A stretch of DNA of 64,000 bases. It comes from Vulcanimicrobium alpinum (lineage in GTDB: Bacteria > Vulcanimicrobiota > Vulcanimicrobiia > Vulcanimicrobiales > Vulcanimicrobiaceae). Position numbers and translations under genes: made by a program. The stretch covers positions 2,546,484-2,610,483 of the forward strand of contig NZ_AP025523.1 in the NCBI RefSeq assembly GCF_027923555.1. Reading direction: 5' to 3'. Below the pieces are notes generated by a model. That model saw only the letters and a list, made by a program, of their open reading frames with translations, made no database searches and had not been told where the DNA came from. Positions 11,266-30,862 of the stretch are shown in pieces (the first letter of the stretch is position 1; each line of letters opens with the position of its first letter).

Positions 11266-11268
11266 CTC

Positions 11269-12558
11269 ATGCCGAAGGTTCTGGTCGTCGGTGCGAACGT
11301 CGGGGGTGCGATCGCGGCGGGCGATCTCGCAGCGCAAGGCTGGGACGTCACGCTGATCGAGCGCGATCTCAAGCGCAAGAAGCCGTGCGGCGGAGCGATC
11401 CCGCCGAAGGCGATCAGCGAGTTCGGCGTCCCGGAGACGATCATCGAACGCAAGACGACGCGCGCGGTCATAATCGGCCCCAGCGGCTCGGAAGTCGCGA
11501 TGGACGTGCGCGGGTCGAAGAAGCGACCCGACGACTACATCATCATGGTCACGCGCGAGGTGCTCGACCGCACGATGCGGGAGCGTGCCGCGAACGCCGG
11601 TGCCGACGTGCGCGAGGCGTCCTTCGTCTCGCACGAGCAGCACGCCGACGGGGTGCGCGTGAAGCTGCACTATCGCGACGGCCGCGAAGAACTCGTCAAT
11701 TACGATTACCTGATCGGCGCCGACGGCGCCGGCTCAGCGGTCGCGAAATCGTGCGGCCGCGCCCCGCAGCGCCACGCTTCGGCGATTCAGGAACGGCTCG
11801 CACTCCCCGACGACGCGATGGCGTACTACGAGAACACCGCCGAACTCTACCTCGGCGACGACATCTCGCCCGATTTCTACGGCTGGGTGTTCCCGAAGAG
11901 CGATCACGTCGCGGTCGGCACCGGCTGCCGTCCCGAGCACGCGAACCAGACCTATCAGTTCCTGGAAGGCGTGAAGCGGCGCGCCGGCCCGAAACTCCGC
12001 GGCGCACGCCGGATCCTGCTCGAAGGTCATCCGCTTCCGATGCAGCGCTACAAGAAGTTCGTCTACGGGCGCACGATGCTCGTCGGCGACGCCGCGGGGC
12101 TGGTCGCGCACACCTCCGGCGAGGGGATCTACTTCTCGATGGCCTCGGCACGGATCGCGGCGCAGGTGCTGCATCTGAGCGCGACCGATCATCGCACCGC
12201 GCTGACGCGGTACGAGAAACTCTGGCAGAAAAAATACGGCGCGATGTTCGACTTCCTCGAGTTCCTCGAGCAGATCTCGTACACGAACAACTTCGCGCGC
12301 GAGTTCTTCGTCGACATGTGCTCGACGCGCGACGTGCAGCGCTTCACCTTCGATTCCTATCTCTTCAAGGAAATGGCGCAGCTGAAGCCGGGCGATCACT
12401 TCCAGATGGCCTTCGAAGCGGCGAACCGCGCGATCGCAACCTGGTTCTGGAAGCGCCGCCCGATCGCCGACGCACCGCCGTTGATCACCGCCAAAGAAGC
12501 GCTCCAAGCGACCCGCCAAGCGATCCGCGAAGGCGTCACCGCCGACGCCGTCGCGTAG
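11269..12558 (+). CDS. bchP: Geranylgeranyl reductase
   Basis: A 429-residue FAD-dependent reductase that converts the geranylgeranyl tail of bacteriochlorophyll to phytyl. The dinucleotide-binding start reads VLVVGANVGGAIAAGDLAAQG, with ANVGGA in place of the usual GxGxxG, followed by ERDLKRKKPCGGAIPPKAI, the family's substrate-side CGG(G/A)xPP signature. YLIGADGAGSAVAK and GRTMLVGDAAGLVAHTSGEGIYFSM are the FAD-contact motifs. ATG at 11269 is 3 bp after bchG. It is the last gene of the bchNBGP run; a large palindrome follows that may stop or stabilise the transcript. Confidence 0.93.
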   Translation: MPKVLVVGANVGGAIAAGDLAAQGWDVTLIERDLKRKKPCGGAIPPKAISEFGVPETIIERKTTRAVIIGPSGSEVAMDVRGSKKRPDDYIIMVTREVLDRTMRERAANAGADVREASFVSHEQHADGVRVKLHYRDGREELVNYDYLIGADGAGSAVAKSCGRAPQRHASAIQERLALPDDAMAYYENTAELYLGDDISPDFYGWVFPKSDHVAVGTGCRPEHANQTYQFLEGVKRRAGPKLRGARRILLEGHPLPMQRYKKFVYGRTMLVGDAAGLVAHTSGEGIYFSMASARIAAQVLHLSATDHRTALTRYEKLWQKKYGAMFDFLEFLEQISYTNNFAREFFVDMCSTRDVQRFTFDSYLFKEMAQLKPGDHFQMAFEAANRAIATWFWKRRPIADAPPLITAKEALQATRQAIREGVTADAVA

Positions 12559-14312: not shown

Positions 14313-15595
14313 ACGATTCCCTTCGCGCGTAGATCGCGCAGCGACGCTTCGATCGCGCCGGCGGTGAAGGCGACGTCGTCGTCGCCGTGCGCGGTCGAGA
14401 GAAACATGACCTCGTTGTGCGAGGGCGGCAGCAGCACGCCCCGCTCGCGCATCGCGTGATAGAATGCCGCATAGGCACGCTGATCGTCGCGCTGCTGGTC
14501 GTCGTACGACCGTGTCGGCGGTCCGGACCGGAACTTGAAATCGACGATCGAGGCGAGCTGCAGGACGGCATAGTCGAGCGCAAGCGCGCGGAGGGACGCG
14601 CGGATCGATGCGGCGAGCGCGCGCGCGCGCCGCTCCGTCTGGGCCAGCACGTCCGCATGCGTTTCGAGATAGTCGAGAACCCGCAGCCCGAGCGCGATCC
14701 CGAAGGGCATCCCCGCGTGCGTCCCGCCGGTGAACGCAGGACCGTCGGGCGCGAGCATCGCCATGATCTCCGCGCGCCCGCCGAACGCCGCGACCGGAAA
14801 ACCGCCGCCGAGAACCTTGCCGACCGTCGTCAGATCCGGCGTGACGCCGACGCGAGCTTGCGCGCCGCCCAGACCCAGCCGCAGCCACGTGATGATCTCG
14901 TCGAAGATGAGCACCGCACCGCAGCGGTCGGCGCGCGCACGCAAGCCTTCGAGGAAGCCCGGCACGGTCTCGACCAGGCCCATATTCCCGCACACCGGCT
15001 CGACGAGGATCGCGGCGACGCGACCGTCGAGCATCGCCAGCAAACGGTCGACGTCGTCGAGATCGTTGTAGCGTGCGACGGCGAGGTCGCCGACGACCGC
15101 GCGCGGGATCCCCGAGCCGCCGGCGTGCGGGGTTTCCGCCGACGCGCCGGCGTCCTGCAGCGCGAGATCGAAGTGGCCGTGATAATTGCCGGAAAATTTC
15201 AGCACCGCGTCGCGGCCGGTCCACGCGCGCGCGACGCGGATCGCGCTCTGCACCGCCTCGCTGCCGGTCGTCGTGAAGCGCAGGCGCTCCATCGACGGCA
15301 GGTGACCGCGGATGCGCTCGGCGAGCGCGAGTTCGTCGGGCGACGTCGAGCCGTACACGACGCCGCGCGCCGCGAGCGCGTCGAGGCCGCCCAGAAACGG
15401 CGGGGTGTGCCCGAACAGCAGCGGACCGTAAGCCATCACGTAGTCGGCGTAGCGGCGACCCTGCTCGTCGTAGGCATACGGCCCTTCCGCGCGCACGCAA
15501 ACGAACGGGTCGCCGCCGACACGGCGGCCCGCCCGGACCGGTGAACTCGCACCGCCGGCGAGAACGGCGTCGAGCGCTACGCGAGCGTCGAGGAT
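14309..15595 (-). CDS. hemL: Glutamate-1-semialdehyde 2,1-aminomutase
   Basis: A PLP enzyme making 5-aminolevulinate in the C5 pathway, the entry to haem and bacteriochlorophyll. Family blocks: GGASSPVRAGRRVGGDPF, ADYVMAYGPLLFGH, FTTTGSEAVQSAIRVARA, FSGNYHGHFD, EPVCGNMGLV, DEIITWLR, and the PLP-lysine block LTTVGKVLGGGFP. Then GPAFTGGTHAGMP. DEIITWLR replaces the common DEVMTGFR. There is no ATG, GTG or TTG upstream of the SPVR motif in this frame. The best start is ATC at 15593-15595, preceded by a strong GGAGGGAG, which gives 428 residues, the normal family length. A CTG further upstream is an alternative. The start lies inside the PYP-like gene. Confidence 0.9.
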   Translation of the reverse strand: MLDARVALDAVLAGGASSPVRAGRRVGGDPFVCVRAEGPYAYDEQGRRYADYVMAYGPLLFGHTPPFLGGLDALAARGVVYGSTSPDELALAERIRGHLPSMERLRFTTTGSEAVQSAIRVARAWTGRDAVLKFSGNYHGHFDLALQDAGASAETPHAGGSGIPRAVVGDLAVARYNDLDDVDRLLAMLDGRVAAILVEPVCGNMGLVETVPGFLEGLRARADRCGAVLIFDEIITWLRLGLGGAQARVGVTPDLTTVGKVLGGGFPVAAFGGRAEIMAMLAPDGPAFTGGTHAGMPFGIALGLRVLDYLETHADVLAQTERRARALAASIRASLRALALDYAVLQLASIVDFKFRSGPPTRSYDDQQRDDQRAYAAFYHAMRERGVLLPPSHNEVMFLSTAHGDDDVAFTAGAIEASLRDLRAKGIV

Positions 15596-15984
15596 GGCTC
15601 TCCCTCCGGAACCTGGTTCCGCAGCACGCAGATCGTCGCGCGATCCGAATCGTTCGCCAGCCGCACGAACACGACGGTGACCCGCTGCGGGCCGTGCGGA
15701 AACGCGAAGACGAATTCGAACGGCTCGACCGAGGTGTCCTGCGAATCGAGAAACGTCGTGAAACGGCCTTCGAAATCTTTGATCGCCGTGCACGGCGCCA
15801 GGTCGTGGAAGAAGTTGAGGCCGACGACCGATTTGCCGCCCATGTGTGCCAGATTGCGCTCGTATGCGTTGTATTCGAGGATCGCGCCGGTGCGATCGAC
15901 GACGATCACGCCGAACGGCAACCGGTCCAGCTCCTCGCCGCTCAGGCGCGACGCGAGATCGAGATCGGACGGGTGGAAATTCAC
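15577..15984 (-). CDS. Photoactive yellow protein (PYP) homologue, PAS-domain photosensor candidate
   Basis: A 135-residue single PAS domain that aligns without gaps to Halorhodospira PYP through the chromophore region at a constant offset of four residues. LPFGVIVVDRTGAILEYNAYE matches the PYP [21 protein letters not shown] region, and VGLNFFHDLAPCT matches IGKNFFKDVAPCT. The residues that matter in PYP are kept: Tyr42 (here Y38), Glu46 (E42) and the p-coumarate-binding Cys69 (C65). Thr50 and Arg52 are replaced by Ala46 and Met48. GTG at 15984 overlaps the TGA of the dprA-like gene, with GGAGG just upstream. No tyrosine ammonia lyase or coumarate-CoA ligase is in the window, so chromophore supply is unproven. 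It may instead be a non-photoactive PAS sensor. Confidence 0.8.
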   Translation of the reverse strand: MNFHPSDLDLASRLSGEELDRLPFGVIVVDRTGAILEYNAYERNLAHMGGKSVVGLNFFHDLAPCTAIKDFEGRFTTFLDSQDTSVEPFEFVFAFPHGPQRVTVVFVRLANDSDRATICVLRNQVPEGEPSSTLA

Positions 15985-16784
15985 GAGACCTCCAGGCCTG
16001 GGATGACGGAGAGTATATGCGATGCGGCACGTTGCGCATCCCACGGAAGTCGATCTGCGCCGGCGGCGAGCGCGGCGCGGTTGCCGCCGGCGTCGCTCTC
16101 GAGGGCGAACCGCGGACGCCCGGACCGCTCGGCGAACCGGAGGGTATGCATCGCGCCGCCATCGGCGTCGGATTCGACGAGCACGACGGCGTCGGCGTGC
16201 GCGGCCTGCAGGCGGTCGCGCCGCACCAGCGACCAGCGCGTCGCGGGATCGTGCGGCGCGCGCTCCGCCGCGACCGCGCCGCCGCCGGCGACGATCGCGT
16301 CGGCGAGCGCTTCGTGTTCGGGCGGAAAGGTGCGCGCGATCCCGGTCCCGACATACGCGATCGTCGCGACGCCGGCGGCGAGCGCGCCGCGATGCGCCGC
16401 CGCGTCGACGCCGTGCGCGAGGCCGCTCACCACCGGCCGCCCGATCGCGCGGGCGAGCGCATTCGCGAAGGCGCAGGCGCGTTCGCTCGCGTCGCGCGCC
16501 CCGACGACCGCGATCCCGCCTGCGGCGAGCCTGCCGCGCACCGCGAGAAACGCGGGCGGATCGGCGAGATCGTCAAAGCCGCGCGGCCAGTCCGGATCGC
16601 CCGGCGTCACCAGCCGCGCACCGAGCGCTTCGAGCGCCGCGAGATCGACGCGCGCGTCGCGTCGCGCTTCGGCGAGCCGCAACGCCGATTCAGCCCCGAG
16701 CCACGCCCGCAGCGGCGCGGAGTCGCCGCGGCCGAGCGCGCGCAGCGGACGCGCCGGCACGCGCAGCCGCCACGCCGCCAGCAA
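15981..16784 (-). CDS. Divergent DprA/Smf-family nucleotide-binding protein
   Basis: About 267 residues with the SMF/DprA Rossmann core: AVVGARDASERACAFANALARAIG, VVSGLAHGVDAAAHRGALAAG, TIAYVGTGIARTFPPEHEAL and a GGGAVAAERAPHDPATRW segment. The usual RNRIIAGLS motif after this is altered (VRRDRLQAAHADAVVLVE), and the SGSLITA motif is DGGAMHTLR. DNA-processing function in transformation is therefore less certain; the fold is clear. Start options are TTG at 16784 (used) or CTG at 16808, which would overlap the bchZ TGA. It sits between bchZ and the PYP-like gene in the same overlapping unit, an odd context for a competence protein. Confidence 0.75.
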   Translation of the reverse strand: MLAAWRLRVPARPLRALGRGDSAPLRAWLGAESALRLAEARRDARVDLAALEALGARLVTPGDPDWPRGFDDLADPPAFLAVRGRLAAGGIAVVGARDASERACAFANALARAIGRPVVSGLAHGVDAAAHRGALAAGVATIAYVGTGIARTFPPEHEALADAIVAGGGAVAAERAPHDPATRWSLVRRDRLQAAHADAVVLVESDADGGAMHTLRFAERSGRPRFALESDAGGNRAALAAGADRLPWDAQRAASHILSVIPGLEVS

Positions 16785-16804
16785 GGGCAGATCCCGGAAC
16801 GGGT

Positions 16805-18385
16805 TCAGGGCGAGAAACGCGCCGTGATCTCGTCGACGATCGCGAGGTCCACGTCGGTCCTCCGTTCGCGCGCGAGCTTCTCGGATTCGGCACGCAGCTT
16901 CTTGTTGACGGAGACGCGCACGAAGAACGGGACGCGCTTCGTCACGCGCTCCGCCTGCGCTTTCGCCTCGTCCGTCCACGTGACGACGGCGTTCTGTCCT
17001 TTGCCGGTGTCAGTCTGCGCCTGCGGCGCGGCGCTGAGGATCTGGCGCGTCGTCACGTCGGCCCGCACCGGCGGCGCCTTCGAGGTCGGCAGGTTCGCGA
17101 AGAGCACGTCGAAGAGCGTCTCGCAGACGACCTGCAGCAGCCACACCGCGCCCGCGTAGCCGACGAACGGCGTCCCGGTCGCGCGGCGCACGACGGCGCC
17201 GGGAAACGACACCTGCATGAAGCGCGACGGCATGCGCTCCTGCGCGACGATCATCCGCTCGTTGATCGACCCCAGCACCAGCATCGGCGACGGGCTCGCG
17301 TCGGCGAGCGCGGCGCGCACCGCGTCGCTGGGCGCGCTCTCCGGACCGGTGCGGTACGCGCTGAACGCGATCGGCAGCCCGAGTTCGCCGCCGAGATAGC
17401 GTTCGAGGCCGTCTTTGTACGTCGGCGGCGCGACGATCGCGATCGGTGCGTTTGCGAAGAAGTCGGAGTGCGTCGAGTTCCAGATGTCTTTCCATGCCGC
17501 GAGCGTCGATTTTTTCTCGGCGGCGATGAACGCGGCGGCCTGTTCGCGCAAACCGAGCGTCTCGCCGAGCCCGCGCAGGAACGTCGTCGTCTCCTCGAGC
17601 CCGAACGGCGCGTGAAAGACCGGCAAGCCGACCTCGCGCGCGAGCGAGATGCCGAACTCTTTGTAGAGAACCACGAGCGCGTCGCCGTCGGCGAGATCGG
17701 CGGTCTCCCACGACGCGGCCTTGAACGGATAAACGAGACCGACGTCGGCACCGATCCCCCGGATCAGCCGTTCGATCTCCGCGAGATCGGAGTACGAGTT
17801 GAAGCATCCGTACGTCGGCCCGATGAGGTGCACGCGGGGTTTGGTCTTCGGAACGGCCGGCGCATCGGCGGGCCGCACGAAGTGAGCGCGGTGCTCCCAC
17901 AGGAAGAGCAGGGCGCGGTCGCGCGCCTTCCACTCGTCGTCGTCGAGCGCGTGCGCATCGAAGAAGAGCGCCGACCCTTTCACGTCCTCGTCGATCGTCG
18001 TCCACGCGCCGCCGATGAGTTCGGAGACCGGCGTCGAGACGATGATCACCTGACGCCCCTCGACGCTCGCGCGCGCGACCTTCTCCTTGAGCGCAGGGAG
18101 CGTCCCGGTGATCGTCACCTCGTTCTCTGAGAGTTCCGAACAGGTGACATTCTGCAGGTACGGGATGCTGTCGGTGTAGTTGATGACGGCGACCGCCGGC
18201 ATCACGTGGCATCCGACCGGTCCGTCGAGCACGACGTTCACGTCGCGCAGCGACGCGAACGCCTGCATCGCGCCGGTGTCGCCGCCGCCGTGATCGAGAT
18301 CGGTCACCTGCTTGCGGATCGGCGTGTTCACCACGTCCGACGGCAGCTCGCTGGGCTTGACCGAAGGCCGGACGCCGACCGCCAT
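16805..18385 (-). CDS. bchZ: Chlorophyllide a reductase subunit Z
   Basis: A 526-residue BchZ. With BchY it forms the NifDK-like catalytic part of COR, which reduces ring B of chlorophyllide; BchX is the reductase. N-terminal GGGDTGAMQAFASLRDVNV, DGPVGCHVMPAVAVINYTDSIPY and NVTCSELSENEVTITGT hold the conserved Cys and substrate-site residues. GPTYGCFNSYSDL follows, and the C-terminal VTWTDEAKAQAERVTKRVPFFVR block is the BchB/BchZ-type tail. ATG at 18385 is two bases after bchY. Part of bchFCXYZ. Confidence 0.95.
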   Translation of the reverse strand: MAVGVRPSVKPSELPSDVVNTPIRKQVTDLDHGGGDTGAMQAFASLRDVNVVLDGPVGCHVMPAVAVINYTDSIPYLQNVTCSELSENEVTITGTLPALKEKVARASVEGRQVIIVSTPVSELIGGAWTTIDEDVKGSALFFDAHALDDDEWKARDRALLFLWEHRAHFVRPADAPAVPKTKPRVHLIGPTYGCFNSYSDLAEIERLIRGIGADVGLVYPFKAASWETADLADGDALVVLYKEFGISLAREVGLPVFHAPFGLEETTTFLRGLGETLGLREQAAAFIAAEKKSTLAAWKDIWNSTHSDFFANAPIAIVAPPTYKDGLERYLGGELGLPIAFSAYRTGPESAPSDAVRAALADASPSPMLVLGSINERMIVAQERMPSRFMQVSFPGAVVRRATGTPFVGYAGAVWLLQVVCETLFDVLFANLPTSKAPPVRADVTTRQILSAAPQAQTDTGKGQNAVVTWTDEAKAQAERVTKRVPFFVRVSVNKKLRAESEKLARERRTDVDLAIVDEITARFSP

Positions 18386-18387
18386 CG

Positions 18388-19695
18388 CTACAGCGCTCCG
18401 TTTGCCTGCAGGTGCGTGGTCAGATCGATCGCCGGTGCCGCCCAGGACGTGTACGTCCGCGCCGGGGCGTCCTCATCGTCGGCGAAGAACCGCGCGACCT
18501 TGTCGTAGCGCTCCTTCGCCCGATGCGTCTGCGTCACGAGCTGCAGCACTGCGGTCGCACCTTCGGCGAGCATCAGCGATCGCGTGGCGATCGCGTTGGT
18601 GTAGTAGATCGACGGGATCCCCAGCTCTTTGGCGTGCGCGCACAGGGGCGTCGTTCCGATCACCAGGTCGTAGGGGTGATTCGTCAGCGCGCCGATCTCG
18701 TCGTCGAAATTCGCGCCGTACAGCACGGTGCAGCCGTGCGCTGCGAGCCACGCTTCTTCTTCGCGCGCGAGCGGATTCGCGTTCACGGCCGTCGAGAGAA
18801 ACGGCACCTTCGCTCCCGCTTCGAGCAGCAGCCGCACCAGCAGGAACTCGTGCCCTTCGTACCCCGCGACCATCACGGTGAGCCCGTCGAGCGGGTACTC
18901 CGAGATCGCGGCCTCGACGCGCGCCTTCTCCTCGCGAGCGACCATCCGCACGCGCGTCTCGTCGAGCGCGAGCGCCGCACCGACGTCGACGATCCATTTC
19001 TCGGTCCCCGCGATCCCTACCGGCGCGCCTTCGACGAACGGCAGGCCCTGCTTCATCTTCATGCGCTTCACCGATTCGGAGTAGAACGGGTGCAGCGGTG
19101 CGTTCAGCGCGCCGTCGACCATCGCGACGTAATCGGCCCAGCGCGGACCCGGGACCGTCGTGTTCACGTGCGAACCGATCCGGCGCAGCACGCCGTCGAG
19201 CACGATCGGGTCGCTCGGGAAAATCTCGCCGATCAGGTTGACGCCCGAGCGCTGCTTGCGCTGCGGCGGGAGCCGCCAGACCAGCGAGTCGACGACGATG
19301 TCTTTCGCGCGCGCGTGCGTGTGCACCGAATAGGCCGGCAGCGGGACGTAGATGACCTCGGTCGCGCCGACCTGCTTGGGCAGCAAGTCGAACGGCAGCC
19401 CGACGGTATCGCTCACGCACAGCGAGCAGATCGGAATGATCGCCGGCGAGTGCTTCTCCGCGATGTCGTGCACCATCGCGCGCAGCTCGTCGAACATCGA
19501 GCCCTTCGCCCAAATCTCGCTCGAGACGCCGGGCGAACGGATCGGCCGGTTTGCGACGTAAAAATGCGCCACGAACGTGTGCCCGTACAGACACCCGTCA
19601 CCGCTGGAGATGACGATCGGAACCGCGTCCTCCATTCGCAGCAGATTCCGCACCGCCCCGAACGCGGGGCACATCGACGAAGGCTGCTTACTCAT
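18388..19695 (-). CDS. bchY: Chlorophyllide a reductase subunit Y
   Basis: A 435-residue BchY. Cys-containing blocks at the N-terminus are SSMCPAFGAVRNLLRMEDAVPIVIS (split as MCPAFGAV and AVPIVISSGDGCLYGHTFV) and IPICSLCVSDTVGLP, consistent with [4Fe-4S] ligation at the BchY-BchZ interface. The C-terminal half has VMVAGYEGHEFLLVRLLLEAG and DLVIGTTPLCAHAKELGIP, both typical of this NifD/ChlN-like family. It acts with BchZ on chlorophyllide a. ATG at 19695 lies 33 bp after the bchX stop. Confidence 0.95.
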   Translation of the reverse strand: MSKQPSSMCPAFGAVRNLLRMEDAVPIVISSGDGCLYGHTFVAHFYVANRPIRSPGVSSEIWAKGSMFDELRAMVHDIAEKHSPAIIPICSLCVSDTVGLPFDLLPKQVGATEVIYVPLPAYSVHTHARAKDIVVDSLVWRLPPQRKQRSGVNLIGEIFPSDPIVLDGVLRRIGSHVNTTVPGPRWADYVAMVDGALNAPLHPFYSESVKRMKMKQGLPFVEGAPVGIAGTEKWIVDVGAALALDETRVRMVAREEKARVEAAISEYPLDGLTVMVAGYEGHEFLLVRLLLEAGAKVPFLSTAVNANPLAREEEAWLAAHGCTVLYGANFDDEIGALTNHPYDLVIGTTPLCAHAKELGIPSIYYTNAIATRSLMLAEGATAVLQLVTQTHRAKERYDKVARFFADDEDAPARTYTSWAAPAIDLTTHLQANGAL

Positions 19696-19728
19696 ACCAA
19701 CCCCACGGCACGCTCCGCGCGCGTCACG

Positions 19729-20736
19729 CTAGGAGGCGCGTTCCCAGGCGCCGGCGGGAACGGCACCGCCTCCGACGCTCACGATGACGGGGCCGAGCAG
19801 ACGATGGGCGTCTTCTTCCGCTTCGAGGTAGCGATGATCGTCGAGGCCGCCGTTGGGGATTCCCACCAGCGGATCGTCCTCGCCGAGCGACCACAATTCG
19901 TCCGCGGTGACCGCCGTCCCGTCCATCTCGGCCGCGTTCCCCGTCAGCGACATCATGAACTCGACGAAATCCACTTTGTTCGGCGTCACCGCGGCGCGCG
20001 TGTCGATCGACTCGATCACCTTCGCGACCGCGTCCTGCACGGCGGCATGCGGCACGCCGTCGACGAGCACTTCATCCTGCGGGAGCAGCGGCAGCTTCGC
20101 GAGCACCGGGATCCCGAGCCACTCGGCCAGCTTGTCGGCTTTTCCGCTGCCGTCGTCTTTGTTGACGAACAGCCCCAGGCACCGCGTGCGCCCGCCGTTC
20201 TCGGCGAAATACCGCACCGCCGACGCGATGTTGGTCGCGGCGTAGAGGCTCTGCCCCTCGTTGCTGCAGACGATGATGAGCTTGTCGGCCATCGAACGCG
20301 CGATCGGCGTCCCGAACCCGCCGCACACGACGTCGCCGAGAAAGTCGAGCAGCATGTACTGGAAGTTCCACTCCGAGAGGCCCCACTTCTCGAGGAGCTG
20401 GAACCCGAAGGTGATCCCGCGCCCGCCGCATCCGCGCGCCGACTCGGGCCCGCCGAGCTCGACGCAGTACACGCCTTCGCCTTTGAAGATGATGTGCTCG
20501 GGGCCGAGGTCGTCGGCCTTTCCCTCGGCTTCGAACTTCGCCCAGGTCCCCAGCAGCGTGGGGATCAGCGCGCCGCCGAAATGCGTGACGACCGAGTCGT
20601 GCTTCGGATCGCAGCCCATCTGCAGCACGCGTTTGCCGCGATCGACCAGCGCCTTCGCCGTCATGCTGGTCAGAAACGACTTGCCGGCGCCGCCTTTGCC
20701 GTAGATCGCGACCGTGCTGTTCTTGCTTACGCCCAT
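19729..20736 (-). CDS. bchX: Chlorophyllide a reductase iron protein subunit X
   Basis: A 335-residue NifH-like ATPase that delivers electrons to BchYZ. The P-loop is YGKGGAGKSFLTS (residues 12-24), switch regions are in GCDPKHDSVV and LLDFLGDVVCGGFGTP, and the two cluster cysteines are in ARGCGGRGI and VVCGGFG, giving the bridging [4Fe-4S] of the dimer. A C-terminal extension of about 50 residues after the NifH core is usual for BchX. ATG at 20736 is used because upstream residues in the same frame are arginine-rich shadow of bchC. It overlaps bchC by ten bases. Confidence 0.95.
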   Translation of the reverse strand: MGVSKNSTVAIYGKGGAGKSFLTSMTAKALVDRGKRVLQMGCDPKHDSVVTHFGGALIPTLLGTWAKFEAEGKADDLGPEHIIFKGEGVYCVELGGPESARGCGGRGITFGFQLLEKWGLSEWNFQYMLLDFLGDVVCGGFGTPIARSMADKLIIVCSNEGQSLYAATNIASAVRYFAENGGRTRCLGLFVNKDDGSGKADKLAEWLGIPVLAKLPLLPQDEVLVDGVPHAAVQDAVAKVIESIDTRAAVTPNKVDFVEFMMSLTGNAAEMDGTAVTADELWSLGEDDPLVGIPNGGLDDHRYLEAEEDAHRLLGPVIVSVGGGAVPAGAWERAS

Positions 20737-21719
20737 CGCAGTATCACCTTCAGGGTCGAGGAGTCGTGGAACGCCACGCGATACGCGCTCTCGTACCGTT
20801 CCACCGGGTACGTCTCCGACGCGAGATCGTCGACGCGGACGCGGCCGTCCGCGATCGCGTCTCGCGCTGCAAGCAGATCGCCGTGCTCCCACTCGCGCGC
20901 GACGACCAGCGACGGCTCGCGCACGAAGAGTTCCGGGAACGACGTCTCGAGGCGATCGTAGTACGACATTACGACGATCGTGCCGCGCGGCCGCAGCACG
21001 CCCGCGATCCGCGCGAGCAGTTCGCTCTTGCCGGTGCATTCGAACGCGATGTCGATCGGCGCCGGGCCGCCGCCGTGCGCGCCGTGCCCGTGACCGTGAC
21101 CGTGACCGTGCGGTGCGGCGGCCGGAACGTCGAGCGAGATCCGTTCGACGCCGGGGATGCGGCCCAGGCGCGCTTCGGCGAGATCGGATTCGAACACCGT
21201 CGCGCCGGCCGCGACGAGAAAGCGCGCGACGAACTGGCCGATCGCACCCATCCCGATCACGGCGCAGCGCTTCCCGGCGACGTCGCCCGCGCGCAGCACG
21301 CCGTGCAGCGAGGTAGCGGCGAGTGCGAGCAGCGGTGCGTGCGCGAGGGGGATACCGTGCAGCGGAACGACTTGCGCCGCGCTCTTGATGAGCTGAGACG
21401 ACTGGCCGCCGAACGCGGCGACGACGTCGGCGTAGCAGCGCGCGCCGCCGACGAATACGTCGTCGCCGACCGCGACGTTCGTCACGTCGCGGCCGGCCGC
21501 GGTGACGACGCCGACCGCTTCGTAGCCGGGGACGAGGGGGTATTGCATCCCCGGCATCCCCGGAAGCTTGCCGTCGAAGAGCAGACGTTCGGTGCCCGCG
21601 GAGATCGACGAGTAGCGCGTCTCGACGGCGACCTCGTCGTCGGCCATCGGACGCAGCTCGACGTCGCGCAGCGCGAGCCGCCCCGCTTCGGAGAACACGA
21701 CCGCGCGCGCCGAACTCAT
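20727..21719 (-). CDS. bchC: 3-hydroxyethyl bacteriochlorophyllide a dehydrogenase
   Basis: A 330-residue medium-chain dehydrogenase that oxidises the C3 hydroxyethyl group made by BchF to acetyl. Visible are the N-terminal RYSSISAGTERLLFDGKLPGMPG, PLVPGYEAVGVV, the NAD site CAVIGMGAIGQFVARFL, and IAFECTGKSELLARIAGVLRPRGTIVVM. Between the Rossmann strands there is an unusual His/Gly insertion, APHGHGHGHGHGAHGGG, encoded by tandem CCGTGA-type hexamers around 21083-21115. It could be a metal-binding loop or neutral slippage. ATG at 21719 overlaps the bchF stop (ATGA). Confidence 0.93.
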   Translation of the reverse strand: MSSARAVVFSEAGRLALRDVELRPMADDEVAVETRYSSISAGTERLLFDGKLPGMPGMQYPLVPGYEAVGVVTAAGRDVTNVAVGDDVFVGGARCYADVVAAFGGQSSQLIKSAAQVVPLHGIPLAHAPLLALAATSLHGVLRAGDVAGKRCAVIGMGAIGQFVARFLVAAGATVFESDLAEARLGRIPGVERISLDVPAAAPHGHGHGHGHGAHGGGPAPIDIAFECTGKSELLARIAGVLRPRGTIVVMSYYDRLETSFPELFVREPSLVVAREWEHGDLLAARDAIADGRVRVDDLASETYPVERYESAYRVAFHDSSTLKVILRWA

Positions 21720-22186
21720 TCGGCGCGTACCTGAACCGCTGCGGTCTGGCGATTGTGCTGATGCGTGCGCCACACGTACTGCGCGACGTTCGCCGCGTAG
21801 ACCGTATACGCGAAGAGCAGCATCCCGATCACGGAGACGAGGTTGTCGGTGTGCGTGTACGCCATCGCGAGATAGCCGCCGTGCAGCAGCAGCACGATGA
21901 CGGTGACGGTGTCTTCGAACAGGAACGCCGGCGCGAACCAGTAGTAGCCGTAGACGTCCTTCTCCCACAGCGCGCCGGTCACGACCGCACCGAGCATCAG
22001 CGCGATCTTGAACAGCACCGATTCGTGCACGACGTCGAAGGTGACGGCACCGCGGAAATACAGCACCAGGAGCACGACGCTGACGACGAACGCGAGCAGC
22101 TGTCCGATCGCAAAGATCGGATGGATCGTGGTCCACACGCTGGCTCGCCGGCGCGCCCGCACCTGTTCCGTATTCACAACCGCCAT
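21716..22186 (-). CDS. bchF: 2-vinyl bacteriochlorophyllide hydratase
   Basis: A 156-residue integral membrane protein with four predicted helices. Family marks are WTTIHPIFAIGQLLAFVVS, ALMLGAVVTGALWEKDVYG, FAPAFLFEDTVTVIVLLLH and YTVYAANVAQYVW. It hydrates the C3 vinyl group, providing the substrate for BchC. It heads the bchF-C-X-Y-Z-dprA-PYP-hemL-phhB unit, in which almost every junction overlaps or abuts. The ATG at 22186 lies 60 bp downstream (- strand) of the GGTGA-N6-TCACC palindrome. There is no other start in the frame that would give a longer membrane protein of normal size. Confidence 0.9.
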   Translation of the reverse strand: MAVVNTEQVRARRRASVWTTIHPIFAIGQLLAFVVSVVLLVLYFRGAVTFDVVHESVLFKIALMLGAVVTGALWEKDVYGYYWFAPAFLFEDTVTVIVLLLHGGYLAMAYTHTDNLVSVIGMLLFAYTVYAANVAQYVWRTHQHNRQTAAVQVRAE

Positions 22187-22245
22187 CCGCGAGGTGTGCC
22201 CCCTTCTCTCTCCTCGTCATCGTAGGGAGCACGGGAGACGCGGAC

Positions 22246-22261
22246 GGTGATAGTGGTCACC
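22246..22261. promoter_or_regulatory. Palindromic operator candidate upstream of bchF
   Basis: GGTGATAGTGGTCACC is an inverted repeat with 5-bp arms and a 6-bp spacer, matching the site before bchN (7450-7467) in both arms and in the GG that ends the spacer. It lies 60 bp from the bchF start. The Crp/FNR-family geometry and the neighbouring Crp/FNR gene make it a likely shared control site. The surrounding 22187-22364 region holds no gene. Confidence 0.6.
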
Positions 22262-22364
22262 CGGTCCGCGCATGAGCCCGAGGGGCCATCGGCGAGCCAG
22301 GAGGTCCGCTTTGCGCCCCGGGGGTCACCGGGCCGGCCGGCGACCCGGCCGCGCGGCGATCGTG

Positions 22365-22402
22365 ACAAGAAAACACCCCGTCGTACGGGGCGTACGACGG
22401 GG
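22365..22402 (-). terminator. Rho-independent terminator after the puf/Crp transcript
   Basis: On the minus strand an 11-bp perfect stem (CCCCGTCGTAC / GTACGACGGGG, 22376-22402) with a short GCCCC loop is followed by TGTTTTCTTG. It lies ~30 bp past the stop of the Crp/FNR-family gene and ends the pufBALMC-regulator transcript before the bchF promoter region. Confidence 0.8.
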
Positions 22403-22432
22403 CGCAAGACCTGCGACGACGCGCAGCAGGGG

Positions 22433-23107
22433 TCAGACGATGAGCGCTTCGAGGCTCGCGACGTTGGTGATCTCGAGCGACGCGGCGTGACCGTCGGAGA
22501 CGTAGCCCTGCTGGCGGAAGCGCGCCATGTTCCGCGAGACGGTCTCGCGCGCGGTCCCGATCATGTTCGCCAGATCCTGATGCGTCACGGGGAGATCGAT
22601 CCGAACACCCGCTTCGGTCGGCACGCCGTACTGCTTCGAGAAGCGCACCAGCACGCGGGCCAGCCGCGAGGCGACGTCGCGGCCGCGGAAGTCGTCGAGC
22701 AAGGTCAGCGCGTCGGAGACTTGCTCGGAGATGCGCAGCATGAACGCCGCCAGCCGTTCGGGCCGCGTGCGCACCGCACGCTCGAACTCCGCGTTGTCGA
22801 TCATCGCGATTTCGGCCGGTTCCATCGTCTCGAGGAAGACTTCGCGCCAGTACCCGTTGAGCACCGCGCGGTCGCTCCAGATTGCGCCCGTCTGCAGGAT
22901 CGCGATGAGGATCTCGCGTCCGCTGGACAGCAGCTTCGTCACCTTCACGGTTCCGGAGACGATCGTGAACGTGCGGTGCGGCGCGCTCTCGGGGTCGGAG
23001 ATCGACGCGCCGGCTTCACACCGGCGAATCTGCGCGTTGGCAAACGCCTCGCGAATCTGGATCGGGAATCCTTCGATTTCGCCGGCGTCCGGCAGACTCC
23101 AAAACAT
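22433..23107 (-). CDS. Crp/FNR-family transcriptional regulator
   Basis: About 224 residues: a cyclic-nucleotide-binding-like beta-roll (residues ~30-120, with TFTIVSGTVKVTKLLSSGRE), a long dimer helix, and a winged HTH at ~175-196 (VTHQDLANMIGTARETVSRN). The recognition helix has R-E-T-V-S-R, keeping the Glu and Arg contacts that read GTGA half-sites in Crp-type proteins. Only one Cys lies near the N-terminus, so an FNR-type [4Fe-4S] sensor is not present. ATG at 23107 is used; GTG at 23113 is an alternative. It sits 8 bp behind pufC in the puf operon, so it is likely a photosynthesis regulator. Ligand unknown. Confidence 0.88.
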   Translation of the reverse strand: MFWSLPDAGEIEGFPIQIREAFANAQIRRCEAGASISDPESAPHRTFTIVSGTVKVTKLLSSGREILIAILQTGAIWSDRAVLNGYWREVFLETMEPAEIAMIDNAEFERAVRTRPERLAAFMLRISEQVSDALTLLDDFRGRDVASRLARVLVRFSKQYGVPTEAGVRIDLPVTHQDLANMIGTARETVSRNMARFRQQGYVSDGHAASLEITNVASLEALIV

Positions 23108-23115
23108 ATCCACGG

Positions 23116-24060
23116 TTAGGGCTGCGCTCCCGACGCGAGATGGGCGCCCGGGTTCTCGTGAACCTCGGGATGGGCGGCCTTCGGATCGACCGGCGTTTGA
23201 TCGAGCGCGGCGGTGACCATGCGAGTCGGCCACTTAGCGCCTTGGTGACACGTGTAGCATGTGACCGCTTTGATGTTTGCCGGCAGATACTCGTGATTGA
23301 TGGCATCGACCATCCGCCACATGCGATGCGCGATTTGGTTGGTCGGATAGTACTGCAGCGAGATGAAATCGGCGGTGTTGTGGCAAAACAGGCAGTTCAC
23401 GCCGAGCGATCGGGCGACGCCGTACATCGAGTTCACGGTGTAACCGGCCTGCTTCTGGTTCTTGTAGCGGTAGTCGAGATACTGAACCGGGACCACGTTG
23501 TACTGGACCGCCATCCGCGGCTGGCCGCGGTGACACGTGACGCATCCGACCGCGCCCGAGACGGCGTAGTTCGGATAGTCCTTGTGCACCGGGTCGATGT
23601 ACTGCGCGTTGGCCGCGACGACCATCTTGGCCATGAGGCGCGCAGCCTTCTTGGTCGACGTGTCGTACGCGTAATTCTGCGCGTTGTGGCAATACGTGCA
23701 TTGGACGCCGAGCGACGACGCGAAGTACGTCATCTGCCCGATCAATTGCGCGTACGAGTACTTCGTGTAGACCTGCACGTTGTAGAGGCGGCCGGGAACG
23801 TACTCGTGCGGCACCGTCTTCGGCTGGGTCGAGAAGTCGAGCGGTGCGGTTTGATCGACGGGCCCGTAGCCTTTGGCTTGATCGGCGGTGACCTGCTGAG
23901 AATCTTGCGCGCCGAGACCGCCGGAGAGGTTGGTGATCTTCGGGACCGGCGTCGATGCCGGCCCCGCGGCGCGCGCTTGGTCGACGAGCGGCTGCACCGC
24001 GCCGGAGAGCGCGAGCGTCGCGACGATCACGGAAGGACCGAGCCAGCGACGCAGGTTCAC
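23116..24060 (-). CDS. pufC: Photosynthetic reaction centre tetraheme cytochrome c subunit
   Basis: A 314-residue exported cytochrome with four CxxCH haem sites at about residues 121 (CTYCH), 173 (CVTCH), 223 (CLFCH) and 268 (CYTCH), in the paired spacing of PufC. Distal Met ligands are probably in the repeated helices before each site (LMAKMV, MWRMV). It re-reduces the photo-oxidised special pair. The N-terminus is a signal sequence or uncleaved anchor (PSVIVATLALSGAV). No lipobox cysteine is present, unlike lipid-anchored PufC of some purple bacteria. GTG at 24060 overlaps the pufM stop. Confidence 0.95.
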   Translation of the reverse strand: MNLRRWLGPSVIVATLALSGAVQPLVDQARAAGPASTPVPKITNLSGGLGAQDSQQVTADQAKGYGPVDQTAPLDFSTQPKTVPHEYVPGRLYNVQVYTKYSYAQLIGQMTYFASSLGVQCTYCHNAQNYAYDTSTKKAARLMAKMVVAANAQYIDPVHKDYPNYAVSGAVGCVTCHRGQPRMAVQYNVVPVQYLDYRYKNQKQAGYTVNSMYGVARSLGVNCLFCHNTADFISLQYYPTNQIAHRMWRMVDAINHEYLPANIKAVTCYTCHQGAKWPTRMVTAALDQTPVDPKAAHPEVHENPGAHLASGAQP

Positions 24061-25106
24061 GGCTTCTGCACCGAGGTTTCGTTCAGCGGCGTCGTTTTCG
24101 GATACCCCGGCACCGGCAGCCCCGGCTGGATCACCAGCGGCTGTTCACCGGGACGTCCGTTGATCGCAGAGCGCGTGATCGGTCCGTACTGCTGCACGGT
24201 CCCATGATCGACCGCCCACACGTACCAATCGTTCGTCACCCAGCCCGTCGTGATCACGCCGATCGCGCCGGCGAGCGTGGTCATCGTTGCAAACCACCAA
24301 ATCCAGTCGTGAATCGTCTTCGGGTTGGCGTTGAAGCCCATCGTCCAGCGCCAGAACAGCATCGACTTGTGCGAGCCCGAGTGCATGTCTTTGATCTCGG
24401 AGTCCTCGTGGTGGCTGCCCTCGGACGACGTTGCGAGAATCGTCCCGCCGTGCATCCCCCATAGCATCGTCGAACCGAGCAGGAAGAAGATCGAGAGCTG
24501 GTGCCACGGATTGTAATAGAAGTTGCCCCACAGCACGCTGATGTTCTGCGCCCAATCGAGGTCGACGTTGAGGCCGAAGCCCGGTGCCTCCGCCCACGAT
24601 CCCATGATAAGCGGACGGATCACCCAGATCGACGTCGTCAGCGAGATCGCCGAAACGAACGCGAAGAACAGATACGGCCGCCATTGGAAGCGCATCAGGC
24701 GTTCCCAGCAGCGCAGTCCCCAGAAGCCGACCGACGCCGCCCAGAACGTCATCACCGCCATCCAGTAGCCGCCGTGCGCCCATGAGTTCGGGAACGCGAG
24801 GCCGTTGTCGGGCGGCAGGACCTGGATGTTCGCGAAATAGCGGATGTAGTCGGCGAAGTTGTCGTTGACTTGCTGGAGGCCGCCGAGGATCTCGACCGCG
24901 AGGCCCACGATGAAGGTCGCGACGCTGAGCGTTCCCCACAGTCCCAGCCACACCGTCCCGATCTGCGCGTCGACGTGGAAGCGGTTGAGGAACTCCCATC
25001 GCATCGCGACGCCGAGCCGCGCGCCGAGCGGATCGAGTTCGTCCTTGATGCTCGGTTCGGGAAGCTCGAGCGGATGAGAGGGCGCGGCCTCGATGATGAC
25101 AGCCAC
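24057..25106 (-). CDS. pufM: Photosynthetic reaction centre subunit M
   Basis: A 349-residue five-helix reaction centre subunit. The special-pair ligand His is in YYNPWHQLSIFF. Non-haem iron ligands can be counted on the Rhodobacter numbering without gaps: His219 in GMHGG, Glu234 in the segment after SSEGSHH, and His266 in KTIHDW. The DE-loop has the normal length but is unusually His/Ser-rich (EGSHHEDSEIKDMHSGSH). LFWRWTMGFNA and NDWYVWAVDHG are conserved. The C-terminus extends ~35 residues beyond short M subunits, as in PufC-containing centres. The upstream gap to pufL is 11 bp. Confidence 0.96.
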   Translation of the reverse strand: MAVIIEAAPSHPLELPEPSIKDELDPLGARLGVAMRWEFLNRFHVDAQIGTVWLGLWGTLSVATFIVGLAVEILGGLQQVNDNFADYIRYFANIQVLPPDNGLAFPNSWAHGGYWMAVMTFWAASVGFWGLRCWERLMRFQWRPYLFFAFVSAISLTTSIWVIRPLIMGSWAEAPGFGLNVDLDWAQNISVLWGNFYYNPWHQLSIFFLLGSTMLWGMHGGTILATSSEGSHHEDSEIKDMHSGSHKSMLFWRWTMGFNANPKTIHDWIWWFATMTTLAGAIGVITTGWVTNDWYVWAVDHGTVQQYGPITRSAINGRPGEQPLVIQPGLPVPGYPKTTPLNETSVQKP

Positions 25107-25117
25107 GTGCGTCTACC

Positions 25118-25942
25118 TCAGTGAATCCACGGCGGGATGTTCCAGCGCCAGAAGTCGACCCAGTCCTGCACCAGCGTTCCGGAGGTCAGGATGCAGAGGT
25201 CGCTCATCGCCAGCGTGAACACCGCCAGGTACAGGCCCAGGCGATGGATCCCGTACTCGCCGATCGAGTACGCGATGTAATCGCGCCAGAAGTTGTCTTC
25301 GCGCAGCATCTCTTTGCGCGGGTTCTTGTCCGTGTTGTAGGTGCCGAGGATCGCACTGCCGTGCATCGCGAGGATCATCGCGGTGAGGAAGAATCCGAGC
25401 ACGGCCCACGCGTGAAACGGGTTGAGATACCAGTTCATGTAGCGAAAACCGGTGTTCGAGACCCACGTGAGGTGGCTGGAGTACGAAAGGTCGAACCCCT
25501 CGCACCAGCAGCCCATCAGCACCGGGCGAATGATCTGCAGCGAAACCCACGCCGAGATCGCGAGGCTGAACATCGCCGGCACGTGATAGCCCATCTCGAG
25601 CTTGCGGCAGATGTCCACTTCGCGAAGTGCCCACGCGACGAACGCGATCGTCGCGAGGATGACGACGGCTTGCCATGCGCCGCCGTTGAGGAACGAGTGC
25701 GCGAAGCCGAGTCCGACGTCACGCTGCGGAGGATGGACGTTGGCACGAACGAGATCGAGATCGCCTTGCAGGACGACCGCGAGGAACAGCACGCCGGTCC
25801 CGAGCGCCGCAGTGAGCACCGCGACAACCCCCCACAACCCGACATAGAAGCGTCCGAACCAGAAGTCGAACGGGTCGCGTCCCAGCAGCCCGGCAAGGAA
25901 CGTCCCGCCGGGCTTCCGGTACACCGACTCCCACTCGAGCAC
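25118..25942 (-). CDS. pufL: Photosynthetic reaction centre subunit L
   Basis: A 274-residue L subunit. FDFWFGRFYVGLWG opens helix A, HLTWVSNTGFRYMNWYLNPFH carries the special-pair His, LAMHGSAIL the first iron ligand, and EYGIHRLGL the second. REDNFWRDYIAYSIG keeps the Glu-Asp pair and the Ser that feed protons to QB. The DE loop is one residue shorter than in Rhodobacter. GTG at 25942 is used; no ATG is available nearby. Together with PufM it binds the bacteriochlorophylls, pheophytins and quinones. Confidence 0.96.
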   Translation of the reverse strand: MLEWESVYRKPGGTFLAGLLGRDPFDFWFGRFYVGLWGVVAVLTAALGTGVLFLAVVLQGDLDLVRANVHPPQRDVGLGFAHSFLNGGAWQAVVILATIAFVAWALREVDICRKLEMGYHVPAMFSLAISAWVSLQIIRPVLMGCWCEGFDLSYSSHLTWVSNTGFRYMNWYLNPFHAWAVLGFFLTAMILAMHGSAILGTYNTDKNPRKEMLREDNFWRDYIAYSIGEYGIHRLGLYLAVFTLAMSDLCILTSGTLVQDWVDFWRWNIPPWIH

Positions 25943-25963
25943 TGCGGTGCCGCCCCGCCCGCG

Positions 25964-26155
25964 CTACTTGGCGCCCGGCGCTGGGTTGACTTGCGTTTGA
26001 CTCGTTGACGTTTCGGTTGCGGCCGAGATCCACTGACCCGCGTTGTACTTCGACGACGAGAGCAGGATGAAATGGATCAGGAACGCGACCAGCGCACCGG
26101 CGACGCAATACGCGGCGAGGTTGGCGCGGAAGCTGTACTGACGACGTACGATCAT
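25964..26155 (-). CDS. pufA: Light-harvesting 1 alpha subunit
   Basis: A 63-residue single-TM peptide. The membrane helix AAYCVAGALVAFLIHFILLSSSKYN carries the bacteriochlorophyll-ligand His in LIHFILLS, the hallmark of LH1 alpha. A basic N-terminus (MIVRRQYSFR) faces the cytoplasm, and a polar periplasmic tail of ~25 residues follows. Twelve bases separate it from pufB; the pufA-pufL gap is only 21 bp and shows no hairpin of the sort that stabilises pufBA message in some purple bacteria. Confidence 0.93.
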   Translation of the reverse strand: MIVRRQYSFRANLAAYCVAGALVAFLIHFILLSSSKYNAGQWISAATETSTSQTQVNPAPGAK

Positions 26156-26167
26156 GGTCGGCGTCTC

Positions 26168-26362
26168 CTAGATGAACGGCTTGTAGGAGTAGGCGAGGAC
26201 GTGCGCCACGATCGCGACCACGAAGAATCCCCACGATCCGTACACGACGAATTTGTGGACTGTCCAGTCCGCGTTGTTGAAGAGGTGGCGATAGGCCTCA
26301 GGTACTTGGTCGGCGTCGACCTCATACGAAGCGGGCCCCACCGCCGGTTCCAGATTTGCCAT
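26168..26362 (-). CDS. pufB: Light-harvesting 1 beta subunit
   Basis: A 64-residue single-TM peptide. The helix FVVYGSWGFFVVAIVAHVLAY contains the bacteriochlorophyll-ligand His in IVAHVL, and a second His (TVHKF) lies before it, as in LH1 beta chains. The acidic N-terminus (ASYEVDADQVPEAYRHLF) is cytoplasmic. ATG at 26362 is preceded by a GGGGG run. It is the first gene of pufBALMC; the promoter must lie in 26363-26512, where a GTAG-N6-CTAC palindrome is found. Confidence 0.93.
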   Translation of the reverse strand: MANLEPAVGPASYEVDADQVPEAYRHLFNNADWTVHKFVVYGSWGFFVVAIVAHVLAYSYKPFI

Positions 26363-26443
26363 GCGACCCCCATGACGATAGGTGGAGTGGCCGCCGGGTA
26401 GCGGCTCTAGCGCTTACGGTAATCGTTCCGAACGGGGGGCGGT

Positions 26444-26457
26444 GTAGTGGGTGCTAC
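26444..26457. promoter_or_regulatory. Palindrome upstream of pufB
   Basis: GTAGTGGGTGCTAC has 4-bp inverted arms and a 6-bp spacer, 82 bp before the pufB ATG. The same GTAG-N6-CTAC form recurs at 27213-27226, ahead of the divergent 150-aa gene and MetE-like gene. It may be an operator for a photosynthesis regulator. The remainder of 26363-26512 has no gene and must hold the puf promoter. Confidence 0.4.
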
Positions 26458-26512
26458 GGGGTCTCGCCTCGCAGCGCACCGTGAAACGGAAGGCGTCTCC
26501 TGCGTGGCGGAC

Positions 26513-26545
26513 ACAAAAAGACCGCGGCGCGCCAAGCGCGCGCGG
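26513..26545 (-). terminator. Rho-independent terminator between the 44-aa gene and puf
   Basis: On the minus strand CCGCGCGCGC-TTGG-CGCGCCGCGG forms a long GC stem with one bulge (26522-26545), directly followed by TCTTTTTG. It lies ~32 bp downstream of the 44-aa gene stop. It separates the 150-aa/44-aa transcript from pufBALMC, so puf has its own promoter. Confidence 0.8.
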
Positions 26546-26576
26546 GAGCGAATCGCCGACCACGCGTCGCGCGCGG

Positions 26577-26711
26577 CTACTGCTTGAGCGACTTGCCGCG
26601 CGTCCACGGCCACGGGATCACCGCCAGCGCCGGCGCCAGCAGCAGCGCGCCTCCGAACAGGAAGATGCAGAACAGCACCTGCCAACTCGGGATGAAAAAG
26701 TGTGACCACAT
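26577..26711 (-). CDS. 44-aa single-TM protein, unrecognised, puf-adjacent
   Basis: A 44-residue reading frame: MWSHFFIPSWQVL, then a hydrophobic helix (FCIFLFGGALLLAPALAVI) and a short basic tail (PWPWTRGKSLKQ). The Trp-rich ends and single helix are typical of small subunits that sit beside membrane pigment complexes. A GGGAG Shine-Dalgarno lies about 8 bp upstream of ATG at 26711. It starts 14 bp after the 150-aa gene and is followed by a terminator, so the two form a unit. I do not recognise the family. An auxiliary reaction-centre/LH1 subunit or an assembly factor is a plausible but unproven role. Confidence 0.7.
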   Translation of the reverse strand: MWSHFFIPSWQVLFCIFLFGGALLLAPALAVIPWPWTRGKSLKQ

Positions 26712-26725
26712 CGCGCGTGCTCCCG

Positions 26726-27178
26726 CTACAATCCGCGCAGCGACGGCAGCGTCGGCACGTCTTGCGGCATCAGACCGACCTCGAGGCAGTGATCCCAGAT
26801 CGCGTGCGCGGCGTACGTGTCGGGGACGATCTGCGCGACGACGCGATCGCCCTCGAGCCGCGCGTCGAAAATTTTGGGGTCGGCGGCGAGCAGCTGCAGG
26901 AAATGCACGCTGTCGGTCACCACGTCGGGCGCCGCGATCGAGCGCAGCGGGACCGAGATCTCGATCTGCGGCGGGATCGCGAAGCCTTTGCTCACGAGCC
27001 TCCCGATCATCGCCGTGATGTTGCCGGGAAACTGCATCTGCAGCGAGAGCACCGAGCTCTGCGCGTCCCAGGACGGCGCCCACGTCCCCGCGGAGCGATA
27101 CACCGTGTCGGCGGCCAGTTGGCCCGTCGCCCGGCCGCTCGCTTGGAGCGGGATGCGGAGCGTCGCAAAAGCGCCCAT
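26726..27178 (-). CDS. 150-aa conserved-looking protein of unknown function
   Basis: A soluble 150-residue protein with no signal peptide or TM helix. Readable stretches are ATLRIPLQASGRATGQLA, WDAQSSVLSLQMQFPGNITAM, RLVSKGFAIPPQIEISVPLR and CLEVGLMPQDVPTLPSL. Alternating beta strands and helices suggest a compact alpha/beta domain. I do not recognise it. The codon usage is that of a real gene, the ATG at 27178 is well placed, and it is followed closely by the 44-aa membrane gene. Location between the crt and puf genes makes a photosynthesis-related role likely by context only. Confidence 0.7.
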   Translation of the reverse strand: MGAFATLRIPLQASGRATGQLAADTVYRSAGTWAPSWDAQSSVLSLQMQFPGNITAMIGRLVSKGFAIPPQIEISVPLRSIAAPDVVTDSVHFLQLLAADPKIFDARLEGDRVVAQIVPDTYAAHAIWDHCLEVGLMPQDVPTLPSLRGL

Positions 27179-27212: not shown

Positions 27213-27226
27213 GTAGCGAACGCTAC
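27213..27226. promoter_or_regulatory. Palindrome in the 150-aa / MetE-like divergent region
   Basis: GTAGCGAACGCTAC is an inverted repeat with six paired bases on each side allowing GTAGCG/CGCTAC (spacer AA), and it also fits the GTAG-N6-CTAC form seen at 26444-26457. It lies 34 bp before the 150-aa gene ATG and 3 bp before the GTG of the MetE-like gene. It could control either divergent gene. Confidence 0.4.
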
Positions 27227-30741: not shown

Positions 30742-30862
30742 TTCTGACGTGTACTAGGAACGAATCGTAACAGGCGGTGACGGGACGCACTCAACATCTC
30801 CCGAACTCCCCCTGAGGTCATCGTAGGTTAGTATCCACGGCAAAGGTTGTAGCTCCCGCTTC

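Follow-up and report, generated by a model that had tools for sequence, protein, structure and literature searches.

Accessory genes of the photosynthetic apparatus in purple bacteria are small, lie around the puf and puh operons, occur in phototrophs only, are co-expressed with the reaction-centre (RC) and light-harvesting (LH) genes and evolve fast. The gene pair described here, P0001 and P0002, is similar in these traits, but P0001 has no sequence or domain relation to the purple-bacterial factors LhaA/PucC, PuhB, PuhC, PuhE, PufQ and PufX and, as a soluble protein with a predicted tandem ferredoxin-like fold, it differs from these membrane-type factors. PuhA, PufX, RC-S, RC-U and protein X occupy the same niche around the RC-LH1 complex that is proposed below for P0001 and P0002; no sequence match to any of them was found, and predicted topology and fold differ as well. 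The pair was found in a genome of the Eremiobacterota, the third lineage with type II reaction centres (PMC6664022), which has one cultured member. As far as we found, no RC complex from this phylum has been solved in the literature searched, and the best match to PufL in the Protein Data Bank (PDB) is a distant L chain. PuhA (PF03967) did not exceed the cut-off in any of seven genomes, including all the phototrophs, nor in P0001 or P0002, in agreement with the reported lack of PuhA in phototrophic Eremiobacterota (PMC6664022).

The window, the 64-kb stretch of DNA that was analysed, is part of the complete 3,508,363-bp genome of Vulcanimicrobium alpinum (G000), and its gene order (pufBALMC, bchFCXYZ, bchNBGP and a photoactive-yellow-protein homologue) is as in V. 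alpinum WC8-2 (PMC9758169). The puf operon lies on the minus strand at 23116-26362 (pufB 26362-26168, pufA 26155-25964, pufL 25942-25118, pufM 25106-24057, pufC 24060-23116), and is followed directly after pufC by a gene for a Crp/FNR-family regulator (22433-23107, minus strand), as in all six phototrophs of the phylum. Upstream of pufB, on the same strand, are P0001 (26726-27178; ATG at 27178, stop at 26726), which encodes a soluble protein of 150 amino acids, and P0002 (26577-26711; ATG at 26711, stop at 26577), which begins 14 nt after P0001 and encodes a 44-aa peptide with a single transmembrane (TM) segment. The ATG at 27178 is the start conserved throughout the P0001 family alignment, and a GGGAG motif is found at Shine-Dalgarno distance ahead of P0002; together with the coordinates, these features agree with the preliminary description of the two as adjacent, co-directional genes with plausible starts. 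Their GC3 values are 0.90 and 0.91, respectively. None of the 135 stop-free wrong-frame windows of equal length reaches the codon score of P0002, which is therefore not a chance open reading frame (ORF). Both are genuine genes, P0002 being coding-like in its codon usage and, judged by position, co-transcribed with P0001.

About 160 bp ahead of pufB, on the same strand, lies a GC-rich hairpin, CCGCGCGCGC-TTG-GCGCGC-CGCGG (26545-26522), followed by TC-TTTTT (hairpin plus T-run, 26545-26515). At -17.3 kcal/mol it is the strongest hairpin beside any of the 15 T5 runs in the window, and hence plausible as a terminator-like element; random positions gave a mean of -7.5 kcal/mol, with about 5% at or below -18. 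It had been described as a clear rho-independent terminator; a plain scanner detects no terminator, and the 76-nt stretch taken whole folds no better than shuffled sequences (z-score -0.33). Given this terminator-like hairpin, P0001 and P0002 probably form a short transcript of their own that is closed before puf.

The distribution of P0001 was investigated in 149 genomes of the phylum, where protein and profile searches had the same outcome. PufL and BchF are each present in six genomes, and these are the identical six: the window genome, G118, G060, G061, G090 and G095. P0001 is present in all six of them and in one of the 143 others (hypergeometric 5e-10, with kinship ignored). All seven members have profile E-values below 1e-51 and the remaining matches are at chance level, with a gap from 6e-52 to 9e-4 between members and the rest. 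A match in G076 (E 0.0095) was ruled out, as it lies inside a metallo-beta-lactamase-like ORF.

The seventh carrier, G096, has neither pufL nor bchF, and its locus, on a single contig, consists of the aminotransferase gene, a P0001 without its C-terminal tail, and then mrp. A frame that starts directly after the P0001 stop, 'LKKNFNFNAVVAAYLAAGIALALLAHFLATRPGYAWLYR', is a remnant of LH1 alpha (PufA), with an alignment score of 110, whereas shuffled sequences reach at most 46; this stranded remnant (L035:8053-7934) abuts the truncated P0001. G096 branches within the clade of G061, G090 and G095 in both the P0001 and mrp trees, and its locus is most simply explained by a deletion that took the photosynthesis cluster and left stumps of P0001 and pufA. 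Because the pufA remnant sits at the deletion joint, the P0001 of G096 is a relic, and G096 was ruled out as a genuine non-phototrophic carrier. The preliminary description had proposed looking for the pair in all puf-containing genomes and in non-phototrophic relatives. P0001 behaves as expected of a phototrophy gene (6/6 against a single relic in 143), and P0002 does not, with no homologue in the other phototrophs or in any other genome searched. Within Eremiobacterota, P0001 is strictly tied to phototrophy and, by presence and absence, is a photosystem-specific gene of the phylum.

Outside Eremiobacterota, the search for P0001 covered plasmids, on which no relatives were found, and GTDB by one pattern scan, which returned three Eremiobacterota loci only, all already known; a broader alignment yielded no usable pattern. 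The P0001 and PufL trees have the same main split, {G000, G118, G060} versus {G061, G090, G095}, and P0001 has diverged at about ten times the rate of PufL, which points to an accessory rather than a core subunit. Two phototrophic Eremiobacterota metagenome-assembled genomes (JANYGA01 and CAJCIN01; L038 and L039) are deposited as 'Rhodospirillales bacterium'.

In this family, the photosynthesis cluster is flanked by a class-III aminotransferase gene on one side and mrp on the other. The phototrophy block of the window (15577-27178, minus strand) comprises a PAS/PYP-like gene, bchZYXCF, crp, pufCMLAB, P0002 and P0001, and is absent as a unit from the non-phototrophic congeners G128 and G126, where the order is aminotransferase, metE-like gene, crtB, crtI and mrp. 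These two genomes (loci L109 and L114) lack exactly these 11.6 kb, from the PAS/PYP-like gene to P0001, at the corresponding site between the aminotransferase and metE-like genes, and P0001 is lost together with puf and bch. A separate bchNBGP block (about 7501-12558) is also missing at its site in the congeners. Phototrophy within the genus could reflect either gain or repeated loss.

The neighbourhood of P0001 in the other phototrophs raises the possibility that it handles pigment, either by aiding the enzymes of carotenoid or bacteriochlorophyll (BChl) synthesis or by delivering carotenoid to LH1. G118, G061 and G095 carry mrp, then P0001-crtI-crtB and then pufBALMC-crp-bchF (in G095 over two contigs), which places P0001 directly before crtI-crtB, and in G090 and G060 it adjoins crtB. 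Against this, both congeners and G092 retain the carotenoid genes crtI and crtB at the same locus without P0001, so that its role is not in carotenoid synthesis as such, and its absence from these relatives means that it tracks the RC and BChl genes. Furthermore, P0001 in the window has shifted to the puf side, away from the crt genes, with the palindrome of puf (see below) rather than one of crt. On balance we regard pigment handling as unlikely, although carotenoid delivery to LH1, as distinct from synthesis, is possible.

Searches with P0001 and its alignment against Pfam, NCBIfam and PDB sequences gave nothing significant, and P0002 has no Pfam match. P0001 is covered by no family library or solved structure and is unmentioned in the literature searched, and as part of the joint explanation preferred below it would found an undescribed protein family. 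AlphaFold2 predictions for four natural members (mean pLDDT 86.5) contain two ferredoxin-like beta-alpha-beta-beta-alpha-beta units, between which hhalign detected no homology, and the most conserved feature of the family is a P-G-(N/D) turn ahead of the second helix. Foldseek matched the model to pairs of ACT domains and to tandem HMA domains, with a best TM-score of 0.46 (CopA). By predicted fold P0001 does resemble tandem HMA domains such as the N-terminus of CopA (1p6t/2rml), with the same two units in one chain of ~150 aa (Foldseek E 2e-4 for tandem HMA), at TM-scores of 0.45-0.46. Unlike in CopA, however, the CxxC motif of the beta1-alpha1 loop is absent from all seven P0001 members, no Cys or His is conserved among them, and the HMA profile PF00403 matches none at E<=10. 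The lack of conserved Cys or His makes a function as metal chaperone unlikely.

The best Foldseek E-value (4.9e-05) belongs to an ACT pair, the aspartokinase regulatory subunit 2re1, to which P0001 has a TM-score of 0.31 and 13% identity, without any kinase or amino-acid context. The presence of such ACT pairs among the top matches could be taken to mean that P0001 tunes puf and LH expression as a small regulator or sensor, through ACT-like ligand binding or as a partner of the Crp-family protein. Small genes under an operator on which they feed back are common, and this counts in favour of such a role. Conversely, the TM-scores to ACT pairs are low (0.26-0.36), and no DNA-binding domain, Pfam match or conserved ligand-type residues were recognised in P0001; a regulatory role therefore appears improbable to us.

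P0002 does contain a single TM helix, but is not Trp-ended as had been stated: the helix ends with PWPW and is then followed by the basic tail TRGKSLKQ. From its charge distribution, an N-out/C-in orientation is predicted. The proposed likeness to PufX, protein X and RC-S/RC-U chains could not be upheld, since P0002 has no match among PDB photosystem chains at E<=10, no homologue in other phototrophs and charges that point to N-out/C-in; what it has in common with PufX or protein X is no more than its size. Small PufX-type peptides diverge fast, and a structural analogy with P0002 is conceivable. An LH alpha or beta identity is not indicated either, with no His in the helix and no match to PF00556. 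Having no relative in the other genomes searched, P0002 cannot be a common subunit of the Eremiobacterota photosystem.

The helix of P0002 also bears some likeness to PufM, and the peptide might be a duplicated PufM fragment from the helix D region (M residues 192-215), either kept or decaying. Their local alignment scores 51 against 31.4 ± 4.9 for shuffled sequences (p 0.002), above all non-RC hydrophobic windows tested, and only 3 of 5000 shuffles score higher in the profile search. Yet that search yields 6.9 bits, only 8 of 24 positions are identical, the similarity was noticed post hoc and P0002 is without the special-pair His of PufM. The likeness to helix D is suggestive only, and we consider descent from PufM highly doubtful. 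Other short TM ORFs near puf (34 aa in G060; 43-44 aa in G095 and G090) are unrelated to P0002. The 43-44-aa single-TM peptide, encoded between crp and bchF (L033:6560-6694 and L037:2883-3014), is 57% identical between G095 and G090 and has opposite orientations relative to the cluster.

A palindrome, GTAG-N6-CTAC, occurs twice in the window, against 0.07 expected, and the 3.5-Mb genome has four copies in all: one each before pufB, P0001 and a second LH beta-alpha pair, and one within an mnmA-like coding sequence. The operator-like copy GTAGCGAACGCTAC (27213-27226) lies 35 bp ahead of the start codon of P0001; its second neighbour is the divergent metE-like gene, with a GTG start at 27230, 3 bp away, and the congeners have no such site at their metE-like start. 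The copy GTAGTGGGTGCTAC (26444-26457) precedes the start of pufB by 82 bp. The palindrome precedes pufB in five of five assembled puf promoters, being also present upstream of pufB in G118 and about 90 bp before it in G061, G060 and G090; G095 ends at a contig edge. It likewise precedes the second LH pair in three of three genomes (window genome, G118 and G060). This conservation before pufB and the second LH pairs makes the palindrome very likely, as judged from the sequences, a putative operator shared by the RC and antenna operons, a set that P0001-P0002 would have joined in this species.

No palindrome was found before the bch genes of the window, and its presence at puf and the second LH pair speaks for P0001 working with proteins rather than in pigment synthesis. 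The other exact matches examined in the other phototrophs have no antenna genes beside them. None of the five other phototrophs has an exact palindrome before P0001, the best being that of G118 with one mismatch; as P0001 is located with crt in these genomes, co-regulation with puf is indicated here only. A one-mismatch copy, GTAG-N6-CTTC, lies just before mrp (window 30849-30862; G118, L029:9901-9914), where it could serve the divergent operon of crt or P0001 as a weaker site. Half-sites of Crp/FNR sites are likewise 6 bp apart, and if the palindrome is a working operator, the Crp-family protein encoded after pufC would be a candidate reader.

The second LH pair lies far from puf (G000:C1, about 658001-658480; L124:1501-1979), and homologous pairs are present in G118 (L132) and G060 (L118). 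Its beta subunit matches PF00556 at E 0.003, below the Pfam cut-off. The V. alpinum paper mentions pufBALMC alone (PMC9758169), and the second pair could explain the 798-nm band.

Present in all the phototrophs of the phylum that were sampled, absent from non-phototrophic relatives and linked here to a switch in common with the LH genes, P0001 probably encodes a part or a builder of the photosystem. The reading we prefer, with a probability of roughly 60%, is that P0001 represents a new family and a candidate accessory or assembly factor of the RC-LH apparatus, with P0002 as a lineage-specific membrane peptide. Both had been put forward as undescribed components or assembly factors; distribution and palindrome support this for P0001, whereas P0002 occurs in this genome only. 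As a small, presumably cytoplasmic protein with tandem ferredoxin-like domains and no metal ligands, P0001 would be made together with the antenna and RC proteins and would attach, on the cytoplasmic side of the RC-LH complex, to Puf/LH proteins that are still being made or already complete. Its role would be that of a soluble accessory factor of the RC-antenna apparatus, most likely in assembly, or else structural. P0002, made off the same short transcript, might contact P0001 as a partner or provide an extra helix of the complex.

A stronger structural role, in which P0001 is a stoichiometric subunit capping the cytoplasmic face of the H-less RC and is held or sealed here by the P0002 helix, seems improbable. 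It is more doubtful still, to the point of being very improbable, that P0002, with its TM helix and basic C-terminus, and soluble P0001 form a split stand-in for the missing H subunit. The lack of a PuhA match in any Eremiobacterota phototroph (see also PMC6664022), the predicted N-out/C-in orientation of P0002, the adjacency of the two genes and the palindrome in common with puf are consistent with such a replacement; however, P0002 is absent from the other phototrophs, P0001 has no PRC-barrel-like fold and Chloroflexota RCs function without H (PMC6664022).

For this phylum, the palindrome defines a first candidate regulon, consisting of puf, the second antenna operon and P0001-P0002. As a gene that tracks phototrophy and is lost with it, P0001 makes a list of one for the replacement of known assembly or H-type factors. 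Its link to phototrophy, its loss and its association with the RC and antenna switch make it a testable candidate in an unusual photosystem.
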